64,000 nucleotides of DNA, taken from contig NZ_JAHWGH010000015.1 in NCBI RefSeq assembly GCF_019334305.1, positions 62,001 to 126,000 on the forward strand, written 5' to 3'. Positions 43,914 to 51,868 of this stretch are shown one piece after another. The translations under genes and the position numbers were made by a program. Numbering within the stretch: position 1 is the first letter of the stretch; each line of letters starts with the position of its first letter. The notes below the pieces were generated by a model. The model ran no database searches. It was not told where the DNA came from and worked only from the letters and a program-made list of their open reading frames with translations. Origin of the DNA: Rossellomorea orangium (GTDB taxonomy: Bacteria > Bacillota > Bacilli > Bacillales > Bacillaceae_B).

Positions 43914-44069
43914 TTATTTTTTATTTACTTGTGTGCCGCTTTTTTTCTGGCTTTGACCTTTAGCATTTCCTGTCTGGGTATCAGATGCAAACTCCACATC
44001 ATTTTTCGCTTTTTGTTTCGCCAATTGTTCCGATGTTTGGTCCATACTTTTCTTTCCCTGTTTAGACAT
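43914..44069 (-). CDS. Small gamma-type SASP-like protein
   Basis: A 51-residue, Lys/Gln/Asn-rich, cysteine-free protein (MSKQGKKSMDQTSEQLAKQK...). The segment NDVEFASDTQTGN resembles the EFASET repeat of gamma-type small acid-soluble spore proteins (SspE), present once here. The ATG at 44069 is spaced 6-8 bases from GGAGGG; the ATG two codons upstream is too close. Short gamma-SASP-like genes are common in Bacillaceae, but the match is limited to one motif. Confidence 0.55.
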   Translation of the reverse strand: MSKQGKKSMDQTSEQLAKQKAKNDVEFASDTQTGNAKGQSQKKSGTQVNKK

Positions 44070-49110: not shown

Positions 49111-49152
49111 GAGGGACGGACCTCAGCATTTCTGCCGAGGTCCGTCCCTCAA
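49111..49152 (-). terminator. Long hairpin GAGGGACGGACCTC behind the HTH-F1beta gene
   Basis: GAGGGACGGACCTC-GGCAGAAATGCT-GAGGTCCGTCCCTC, a 14-bp perfect stem extended by GC pairs. On the minus strand it follows the stop codon by 1-2 bases and is followed by a moderately T-rich tract, so termination strength is uncertain. The arm is the same word found repeatedly elsewhere in the window. Confidence 0.65.
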
Positions 49153-49153
49153 A

Positions 49154-50203
49154 TCAGTTCAGTTGCCCTTTATAGGTAAGGTCTTTCGGGTCGAGGTGGT
49201 TGAAGTCGCCTTGAAGTATTTTTTGGATATCTGTGATGGTTTGCTGAACCTGTACGCTTTGGCCTTTGACCTTGGTGAATTCTTCTGCAACGAAGAAGGG
49301 CTGGCTCAAGTAAGCTTCTAGTCTCTCTCCAATTTGAAAAATTTCAAGATCTGCTTCAGGGATTTTCTCCTTCCCGATCGTGTTCATGAGAACGCGGATT
49401 TCTTTATACCGTCTTAATAATTTTTTTGCCTTCTTGTGTGTCGACGAGTGGCTGGAATCGACCGTTTCGTCTTCTAAGAGAACAGACGTGGACTGGACCG
49501 GATGAATTGCCGGATACATCCCACGGGTTGCCAAATCAATATCGAAATAACAGAGGCTATCAAGCGGACCGAACGGATCATCTTCGTCGACTGCTTCCCC
49601 ACTCGGATCAAACAATAGTGTCGTGAGCTCAGTATAATCTTCCGCTTCAAAACGCTCCCTTAATTCATACAATTCTCCCGATACGATATACGAACGGTCC
49701 ACATACAGAAGAATACTTTCTTTGTCTTCAACCATGGAAACTTCTGCAAAGGCATCCTCTATACTATGGCATTTAGCATGTACAAATCCTTCTAGATCAC
49801 TTAATCCCGGGTATGGTTTATCCGGTGTCAATAATATGGCGTGGTACCCTTTCTTCTTCAATGCTTGCGTCAATTCAGCCAGTACGACAAATTGGCCGAC
49901 CTGAGCTCTTGCGACGAATCCGTTGGTACCTCCCTGAACAACTGGTGCAAATACATCAAGTGGTTTGATTCCCGTTTCAATCATCCTTCGTTTCCCTCCC
50001 TGAATAATCAGTTCATCCAACGTGCAATTAGCCAGATTTGCAAGCGTGACGATTGTTTTGACTTCTGCACGACCGACCGCTATCTTTCCTGTACATAAAT
50101 TTGAAACCGTGGCCGGCCTCAATCCCACCGATTTAGCAGCCGTTGTCAGATTCGGCACACGCTTACGCAATAATGAAACATTCAGCTTTAAATGGTCTTT
50201 CAT
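49154..50203 (-). CDS. HTH domain fused to a degenerate F1-ATPase beta-subunit-like domain
   Basis: A 349-residue protein. Residues 1-70 are a helix-turn-helix of the XRE type (LTTAAKSVGLRPATVSNLCTG, 19-39). Residues 75-349 follow the F1 beta subunit from its nucleotide domain to its C-terminal helices: IETGIKPLDVFAPVVQGG, VDRSYIVSGELYELR in place of the Walker B region, ATRGMYPAIHPVQSTS, RRYKEIRVLMNTIGK, RLEAYLSQPFFVAEEFTK and ILQGDFNHL. The P-loop has decayed (VARAQVGQF at 97-105 in place of GGAGVGKT), so ATP hydrolysis is not expected. A DNA-binding regulator with a scaffold or sensor made from a beta subunit is inferred. It has no ATP synthase neighbours. Confidence 0.8.
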   Translation of the reverse strand: MKDHLKLNVSLLRKRVPNLTTAAKSVGLRPATVSNLCTGKIAVGRAEVKTIVTLANLANCTLDELIIQGGKRRMIETGIKPLDVFAPVVQGGTNGFVARAQVGQFVVLAELTQALKKKGYHAILLTPDKPYPGLSDLEGFVHAKCHSIEDAFAEVSMVEDKESILLYVDRSYIVSGELYELRERFEAEDYTELTTLLFDPSGEAVDEDDPFGPLDSLCYFDIDLATRGMYPAIHPVQSTSVLLEDETVDSSHSSTHKKAKKLLRRYKEIRVLMNTIGKEKIPEADLEIFQIGERLEAYLSQPFFVAEEFTKVKGQSVQVQQTITDIQKILQGDFNHLDPKDLTYKGQLN

Positions 50204-50240
50204 GGAAAATATCCCCTCCTTACTTTATAAGGTAATCTAT

Positions 50241-50280
50241 ATTACGTTAAAAAGCAATAGTTTTTATTTTAAAACGTAAT
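50241..50280. promoter_or_regulatory. Inverted repeat ATTACGTT-N24-AACGTAAT upstream of the HTH-F1beta gene
   Basis: Perfect 8-bp arms at 50241-50248 and 50273-50280, 38-77 bp before the start codon. Probably an autoregulatory site for the HTH domain; it differs from the Paa-type operator. Confidence 0.5.
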
Positions 50281-50428
50281 TTTTTTACTTCTAATAGTAA
50301 ATAAGACGAATATCTTCACCTCTCCTCTTCTTAGACACATCTAAAATCACCCTATTTTATTGTCCTAAATTCAAAAGGTCGTACCTATAATAAAAGATAA
50401 GAATCTTTTATTAAAAGGATGAAAGTGG

Positions 50429-51541: not shown

Positions 51542-51868
51542 ATGACAGTAAATGTGTTTTTAGACGATTATCGACACTGTCCTCAAGGGTACATTCTCGC
51601 GAAAGATATCGATGAATGTATTGACCTGCTTCTTAATTTTTCTATCGCTCATCTTTCACTGGATCACGACTTAGAGAGTAAGACTCGTAATGGCTTAATG
51701 CTCGTCCACTACATGGTGGAAAAACAGTTATTTGCAGAGAGAATCACGATTCACTCCGCAAACTCTGTAGCCGGAAAGAGAATGTACAAGTATTTAAAAG
51801 CAGCTCAGGATGATCAAAAGATGCCTCGGTCCATTCAAATTCTTTTGCGGCCCTTACCTCTAAGATGA
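51542..51868 (+). CDS. Cyclic-phosphate processing receiver-like (cPRR) domain protein
   Basis: A 108-residue stand-alone receiver-fold protein: VNVFLDDYRHCPQGYILAKDIDEC with the acidic pair, LSLDHDLESKTRNGLMLVHYMVEK and ITIHSANSVAGKRMYKYL. The His-rich, DHD and HSAN motifs mark the cPRR family, which was predicted by comparative genomics to act on cyclic phosphates or RNA ends. No kinase or nuclease partner is adjacent. Family recognition is from memory of these motifs. Confidence 0.7.
   Translation: MTVNVFLDDYRHCPQGYILAKDIDECIDLLLNFSIAHLSLDHDLESKTRNGLMLVHYMVEKQLFAERITIHSANSVAGKRMYKYLKAAQDDQKMPRSIQILLRPLPLR

Follow-up and report, generated by a model that had tools for sequence, protein, structure and literature searches.

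The β subunit of the F1-ATPase is among the most conserved catalytic proteins. In the window analyzed here, a stretch of 64,000 nucleotides of the Rossellomorea orangium genome, a gene at positions 49154 to 50203 encodes a 349-aa product in which a helix-turn-helix (HTH) domain precedes a region resembling that subunit; the gene was delineated as an open reading frame and through its homologs in genomes of the same order. It lies on the minus strand, as do all features of the gene and its upstream region given below. A product of this kind raises the question of what function remains for an ATPase subunit once it is joined to a DNA-binding domain. A sequence-only reading of the window had proposed a regulator built on a β-subunit scaffold that might sense nucleotides, bind α subunits, or tie the energy state to transcription.

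Domain architecture of the regulator family

The N-terminal residues 1 to 67 (50003 to 50203) constitute a Cro/C1-type HTH domain with the near-invariant GLRPATVSNLCTGK. In the window protein the match of residues 8 to 67 to the HTH_26 model is weak (E = 0.0086, below Pfam's cut-off); across the family the model was recovered at E ≤ 0.01 in 39 of the 55 members scanned, with a best value of 3.9e-6. The remainder, residues 73 to 348 (49160 to 49987), is by profiles and alignment an F1-ATPase β-derived domain that lacks the N-terminal barrel region and has a shortened core. All 55 members scanned matched ATP-synt_ab and 53 matched ATP-synt_VA_C. The TIGR01039 (atpD) model retrieved the window protein with 119 bits (E = 2.2e-34), a match to the ATP synthase β subunit that is far above chance and is not a product of low-complexity sequence. 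Since the equivalog cut-off of this model is 463 bits, the window protein is a homolog of AtpD but not an AtpD. The next-best models are those of Mycoplasma-type and alternate F1 β subunits (116.7, 107.8, and 107 bits); FliI and V/A-type models score at most 35 bits. A phmmer search of the PDB with the window protein gave 1.9e-28, and the family profile matched F1 β sequences in the PDB in two stretches, with a best E value of 5.6e-47.

Beyond residue 73 the window protein aligns with the AtpD of its own genome, from ETGIK to VGPI, with 27.3% identity over 278 aligned positions and about 65 AtpD residues left without a partner, which upholds the earlier observation that the F1 β sequence is followed from ETGIK onward. 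Sixteen family members align with the same AtpD at 24.5 to 28.8% identity, and in them the HTH stands where the N-terminal barrel would be. The fusion of an HTH to an F1 β-like part is thus borne out by the HTH_26 matches and the atpD score. Judged from these profiles and alignments, the C-terminal part of the family is derived from the F1-ATPase β subunit. As had also been stated, no ATP synthase gene is nearby; the atpD gene of this genome lies on another contig.

A rebuilt Walker A end and a largely retained base end

Residues were counted in 80 distinct homologs, and motifs were compared after 16 members had been aligned with the AtpD of the window's genome. The remodeled P-loop, FVARAQVGQF in the window protein (residues 96 to 105; 49889 to 49918), corresponds to VARxxMGQL in the 16 aligned members at the place of GGAGVGKT in AtpD, so that the GxxxxGKT signature of AtpD is missing. 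The Walker A lysine is replaced by glutamine (Gln104) in 80/80 homologs, Gly103 is likewise present in all 80, and Arg99 is present in 79. The Walker A threonine has given way to leucine or phenylalanine in 78/80 and is retained in one. The loss of the Walker A motif that had been read from ARAQVGQF in a single protein is consequently a feature of the family.

The GERTREGND motif of AtpD is also absent: the window protein offers no counterpart to six residues in and after it, with the alignment of this loop uncertain. Under the same uncertainty, the column of the catalytic glutamate is occupied by E in 30 of the 80 homologs, by D in 26, and by other residues in 24 (acidic in 56/80), and arginine is not among the six commonest residues in the column of the catalytic arginine. 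At the Walker B position (residues 164 to 170; 49694 to 49714), Asp169 is kept in 78/80 and Arg170 in 79/80. The 24 AtpD residues that follow Walker B are unpartnered in the alignment of the 16 members, in agreement with the shortened middle of the β subunit noticed earlier. Two segments of the adenine pocket are recognizable. The first, Tyr230-Pro231 (49511 to 49516), which we take to be Y345-P346 of the adenine pocket of bovine β, has Y or F at residue 230 and proline at residue 231 in all 80 homologs. The second, QPFFVAEEF (residues 301 to 309; 49277 to 49303), has F303 in 77/80, A306 in 80/80, and F or Y at residue 309 in 75/80, positions that presumably are F418, A421, and F424 of the bovine adenine pocket.

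This conservation pattern indicates that the Walker A end of the site has been rebuilt in a fixed new way, with the base end largely kept. From these replacements we infer that ATPase activity has been lost in the family; the fold and the pocket of the β domain, as described here, are read from the alignment. One explanation that this pattern invites is that the β domain acts as a nucleotide sensor, binding ATP, ADP, or a relative without hydrolysis, with the bound state setting repression. The largely retained adenine-pocket positions would fit such a sensor, as would the Walker B aspartate in 78/80 homologs and the acidic residues at the catalytic-glutamate column in 56/80. Replacement of both the lysine and the threonine of Walker A should, however, weaken phosphate binding; the retained residues may reflect only the structural core, and the hydrolase-type targets described below do not suggest energy control. 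We consider a nucleotide sensor possible, if rather doubtful.

Phyletic distribution, selection, and genomic setting

With a threshold of E ≤ 1e-30 for homologs in the genome surveys, the family is present in 36 of 61 relatives (the window's genome included) and, across the order, in 88 of 397 genomes. Two of the latter (G276 and G261) hold only fragments, which leaves 86 genomes with a full copy. Among 398 genomes of the phylum it was found in three, namely, that of the window, another of the same order, and one of a different class. The regulator found outside the class of the window's genome (L109/L069; G573:C111:16377-17435) has its own operator pair, which was a member of the training set of the R1 profile described below, and its placement suggests horizontal transfer or wide loss. 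Damaged or truncated copies occur at G068:C5:138334-139224, G276:C11:51232-51609, and G261:C43:76206-76646 and are signs of loss; the broken copy in G068 is the second one of that genome, and its start is overlapped by an operator-like match. The 18 loci that could be named comprise 11 from Rossellomorea/Bacillus and 7 from Paenibacillus.

Whole-gene dN/dS ratios of 0.040 to 0.057, with lower values in the HTH, were obtained from the five of six relatives that gave finite values (the sixth was saturated). The gene is under purifying selection, and these low ratios rule out its being a pseudogene.

No neighboring gene family is fixed in position across genera in 59 loci. Generic neighbor families do recur, as in the case of a histidine-kinase-like cluster found in 20 of the 59 loci and at the next position in ten of them. 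A gene for a small stand-alone cyclic-phosphate processing receiver (cREC; PF20274) lies at 51542 to 51868 of the window; genes of this cluster (C5) are no more than three genes away from the regulator both in the window and in the 11 named loci of its genus. A search for RNA families between positions 44000 and 56000 of the window returned none. Phage records yielded 19 matches to the regulator, with none covering 80% of the protein; these appear to be ordinary atpD because in the four that are annotated at the matched position the product is given as ATP synthase β. Several entries filed as phage, such as OR846788, MG065691, and CAKLQH020000035, contain atpD-like sequence that is probably bacterial or host DNA. 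Among plasmid records, a single one carries the regulator, an 897-kb Paenibacillus plasmid (L265; NZ_CP045296.1:534575-547618), on which the gene sits behind a cluster for an ABC transporter, an FAD-binding protein, and a ferredoxin. In the single annotated record consulted, the product is called "hypothetical."

Candidate tandem operators over the presumed regulator promoter

Upstream of the start codon, or at the operon head, we identified a candidate operator, a 16-bp palindrome of the form TTAC-N8-GTAA that is repeated in tandem. In the window there are four such sites. O1 (TTACCTTATAAAGTAA; 50220 to 50235) adjoins the ribosome-binding site and covers the presumed −10 element, and O2 (TTGCTTTTTAACGTAA; 50242 to 50257) covers the presumed −35 element; both are supported by the pattern and by R1. 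O3 (TTACGTTTTAAAATAA; 50264 to 50279), which has one mismatch, and O4 (TTACTATTAGAAGTAA; 50285 to 50300) were recognized by the pattern. The presumed promoter (50229 to 50257), which consists of TTGCTT, a 17-nt spacer, and TACCTT, was derived by comparison across the family; each element agrees with the consensus at three of six positions, and a consensus promoter scan of the window did not list it. The ribosome-binding site AAGGAGGGG (50213 to 50221) is evident in the sequence. Directly 3′ of the stop codon, a hairpin seen by eye (49112 to 49149), which is absent from a computed scan, is a possible terminator. The sequence-only reading had placed a perfect inverted repeat in the promoter; a repeat is present there, but its 13-nt arms (50241 to 50253 and 50268 to 50280) are 85% complementary and by our own reading are perfect only in the outer 8 nt. 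It is made up of the facing half-sites of O2 and O3 and is not the operator itself.

When up to two mismatches are permitted, 37 of the 80 upstream regions have four sites, 25 have three, one has five, and 17 have two or fewer. Of 173 intervals between sites, 31 measure 21 bp, 89 measure 22 bp, and 27 measure 23 bp (147/173 together), or about two helical turns. A pair 20 to 25 bp apart with at most one mismatch per site occurs in 57/80 upstream regions; 200 resampled sets contained 0.06 such regions on average and never more than 1. Where a pair is correctly placed (56 upstream regions), the gene-proximal site invariably has A at position 3 together with TACNNT (56/56), and the second site upstream starts with TTG in 54 of the 56. 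The palindrome is therefore broken precisely where a −35 element requires TTG, with a 17-nt spacer to the −10 element. Given that the sites overlie the presumed −35 and −10 elements and deviate from the palindrome at the TTG, autorepression is the likely outcome. Palindromic sites at the own promoter or operon head are likewise a feature of XRE regulators.

The arrangement bears on a second explanation, according to which the β domain is purely an oligomerization scaffold that clamps several HTH dimers on the tandem sites and has no sensing role. The presence of two to four sites spaced by two turns suggests cooperative assembly, and F1 β is a member of a ring-forming family. The family has nonetheless lost the N-terminal barrel, by which the F1 crown is held together, and a clamp has no obvious need for an invariant remodeled P-loop (Gly103 and Gln104 in 80/80 homologs and Arg99 in 79/80). 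A scaffold that senses nothing thus seems to us unlikely.

Recurrence of the operator array across the family

For genome searches, we built a sequence-only profile, R1, from 34 hand-picked pairs among 64 distinct paired windows; near-duplicates from the window's genus and irregular pairs were dropped from the training. R1 matches 68 of 69 regulator loci and 11 of 11 further ones. The sole locus missed in the main search (L093) gave a weak match of 14.1 bits in a smaller search. Arrays thus precede the gene or its operon head in 80/80 distinct members; a match is built in for the 34 that trained R1. In the main searches R1 also matched 45 of the 46 nontraining loci, many of them closely related to the window or to trained loci.

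The most independent test loci are seven from Paenibacillus and L082, L090, and L108. In the seven Paenibacillus loci, the array is positioned 1.1 to 2.3 kb ahead of the regulator and directly before an acetamidase/formamidase gene; the next gene is that of an α/β hydrolase in five loci and the regulator itself in the other two (L045 and L046). L108 has the order array, amidase, and regulator; in L082 and L090 the array is about 350 bp upstream of the regulator. The Paenibacillus plasmid locus, which is outside the 80, scores 32 bits with R1. The array therefore accompanies the regulator across genera although no neighbor family keeps a fixed place.

Stricter and looser searches define the background. 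A strict pattern matches 40 of 397 genomes, in 29 of them at the regulator (hand count). It also matches at four other places in carriers (G208, G222, G259, and G321), the one in G222 being before an M3 peptidase gene, and in nine genomes without the regulator, where the matches are by eye unlike the family consensus. A reversed-pattern control matches about 28 of the 397 genomes (hand count), which implies that most strict matches elsewhere than at the regulator belong to the background and count only when backed by the profile or by recurrence. Single relaxed sites in the window's genome number 30, against 26 for the reversed-pattern control; because such sites are at background, we used only arrays.

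Genes behind operator arrays in other genomes

R1 was searched against 60 carriers, and 20 off-site matches were examined among the matches listed. Eleven of these 20 are located just before the start codon of recurrent kinds of genes. Among the matches listed, arrays precede M3 oligoendopeptidase genes in G038, G031, G111, and G197 and a fragment in G388, acetamidase/formamidase genes in G234 and G197, and a gene for a TPR and α/β-hydrolase-like protein in G008 and G031; in G224 they precede an α/β hydrolase gene and an ABC exporter pair. The exporter pair was seen under an array once (G224, three sites). The product families are TIGR02289, PF03069, PF22316, and PF00561, and the HExxH motif is intact in all five TIGR02289 sequences read. 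The other nine off-site matches (L192 to L194, L197, L198, and L201 to L204) were set aside as lying inside genes, weak, or unclear.

Some individual loci deserve description. A response-regulator-like gene begins 48 bp downstream of L194. At L199 (G388:C12, about 174024), the array is beside an apparent 111-aa remnant of an M3 peptidase gene. At L190 (G224:C4, about 368642), where there are three operator-like sites, the ABC exporter pair follows a gene for an AraC-type regulator.

The association was followed through each target family. Among 30 M3 loci (24 in carriers and 6 not), an array is present in all four with at least 55% identity to the query and in none of the other 26. This array-bearing clade occurs in 4 of the 397 genomes, all of them carriers of the regulator, with a probability by chance of about 0.002; the M3 peptidase behind the array in G222 belongs to a different clade. 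For the amidase, 30 loci were compared, 20 of them in carriers and 10 not; four have an array, all in carriers, and close amidases without an array are found both in a carrier (G222) and in noncarriers. Of 13 TPR-hydrolase loci, all six close ones (at least 66% identity, query included) have an array and none of the seven distant ones does; the tie to carriage of the regulator alone is not significant (P of about 0.11). The nearest relative of the window's genome, G006, has a TPR-hydrolase gene with an array. A search of the window's genome at E ≤ 1e-20 recovered no TPR-hydrolase homolog, and no convincing off-site array was found in that genome, where R1 matches beyond the regulator's own reach at most 14.5 bits. 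The regulator may accordingly control only itself in this organism.

Taken together, the peptidase, the amidase, the hydrolases, and the one exporter are more in keeping with the removal or utilization of small molecules than with energy control. This composition bears on the proposal that energy state is tied to the ATP synthase genes, and more generally on the idea that the protein controls the atp genes or caps the ATP synthase by binding AtpA. The homology to AtpD, with a possible α-binding surface, might point in that direction. However, a search of the 18 kb that surround this genome's atp operon recovered no operator array, the off-site arrays are at hydrolase, peptidase, amidase, and exporter genes, and 309 of the 397 genomes in the order, whose possession of an ATP synthase can be presumed, lack the family at E ≤ 1e-30. 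The proposed tie finds no support in these data, and we regard control of ATP synthase in either form as highly improbable.

The same targets could be read in yet another way. Efrapeptin, tentoxin, and aurovertin bind F1 at α/β interfaces, and F1Fo inhibitors are made by bacteria and fungi against competitors, according to the portions of PMC9615146 consulted. The copied β domain might then be a decoy target that recognizes natural products poisoning the F1-ATPase and releases hydrolases and exporters against them, and a peptidase, an amidase, α/β hydrolases, and once an ABC exporter pair would be suitable genes for this purpose. The inhibitor pockets, however, involve the α subunit, which is absent here, and the targets vary by genus, with none found in the window's genome, so that we give this decoy little credence. 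Equally speculative is its generalization to a new class of transcription factors, in which a decoy of the F1 motor senses molecules aimed at ATP synthase, or shaped like its ligands, and derepresses genes for their clearance.

A proposed mode of action

The domain makeup, the loss of the Walker A lysine, the operator arrays, and the genes behind them are direct observations; DNA binding, repression, dimerization, and a ligand we infer from them. The HTH, the β scaffold, the lost Walker A motif, and the conserved cis sites favor the original suggestion of a regulator on a β-subunit scaffold. In our assessment, the protein is probably a one-component repressor that regulates its own gene and, in some species, hydrolase-type genes, with the former F1 β subunit as its effector or oligomerization module. 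The Cro/C1-type HTH, presumably as a dimer, would bind the TTAC-N8-GTAA palindromes in tandem, two helical turns apart. As two of the sites cover the presumed −35 and −10 elements of its own promoter, the regulator would shut itself off. The same arrays would put the TPR/α/β hydrolase, the M3 oligoendopeptidase, the acetamidase/formamidase (often then followed by an α/β hydrolase), and the ABC exporter pair under common control. The β domain, which has lost the barrel, parts of the catalytic core, and the lysine of Walker A, would set DNA binding as an effector, an oligomerization module, or both, most likely through a small ligand in the kept base pocket. Occupation of the former nucleotide site by that ligand would release the repressor dimers from the tandem sites. 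Candidates for the ligand are a nucleotide, in view of the kept base pocket, a compound on which the hydrolases act, or an F1 inhibitor recognized by a decoy of its target.

A widespread and selected family with an apparent loss of catalysis would present a rotary-motor subunit turning into a sensor or gene switch. Because its operator is clear, the family can be put to the test immediately: a single promoter fragment would serve to screen for binding, regulon, and ligand.

Relationship to known systems

Searches of the open-access full-text literature, with subscription papers and preprints outside their scope, recovered no description of an HTH fused to F1 β and nothing on the target set. 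As far as these searches show, the effector domain of the family looks undescribed. The closest relative by homology is AtpD itself (TIGR01039), with which the family can be aligned from the ETGIK segment before the P-loop through the C-terminal domain, that is, over the nucleotide-binding and C-terminal domains. In contrast to AtpD, it is devoid of the N-terminal barrel region, the Walker A lysine and threonine, and GERTREGND, has an added HTH, is encoded outside the atp operon, and scores below the equivalog cut-off; for these reasons we do not file it as AtpD.

In terms of regulation, the nearest counterparts are the XRE autorepressors. Passages of PMC12565409 describe XRE regulators as often autoregulatory and as binding palindromes as dimers. 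The family shares with those described there an N-terminal HTH, of the Cro/C1 type in 39/55 members and below Pfam's cut-off in the window member, and palindromic sites at its own promoter. It differs from them, as far as these passages go, in that its effector is a former rotary-ATPase subunit and that it has several tandem sites at two-turn spacing.

The third comparison is with the Mycoplasma F1-like β proteins, NF045934 (MSC_0618) and NF045858 (MMOB1670), which, like the family, are divergent F1 β paralogs outside the atp operon. The parts of PMC3369863 that we drew on, in which MMOB1670 is not named, describe Mycoplasma α- and β-like proteins that carry Walker A and B motifs and cluster together in an operon-like manner. 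Unlike the regulator, those proteins keep their Walker motifs, and the term HTH is absent from the main text of that paper. The Mycoplasma F1-like proteins are therefore a different kind from the regulator family.
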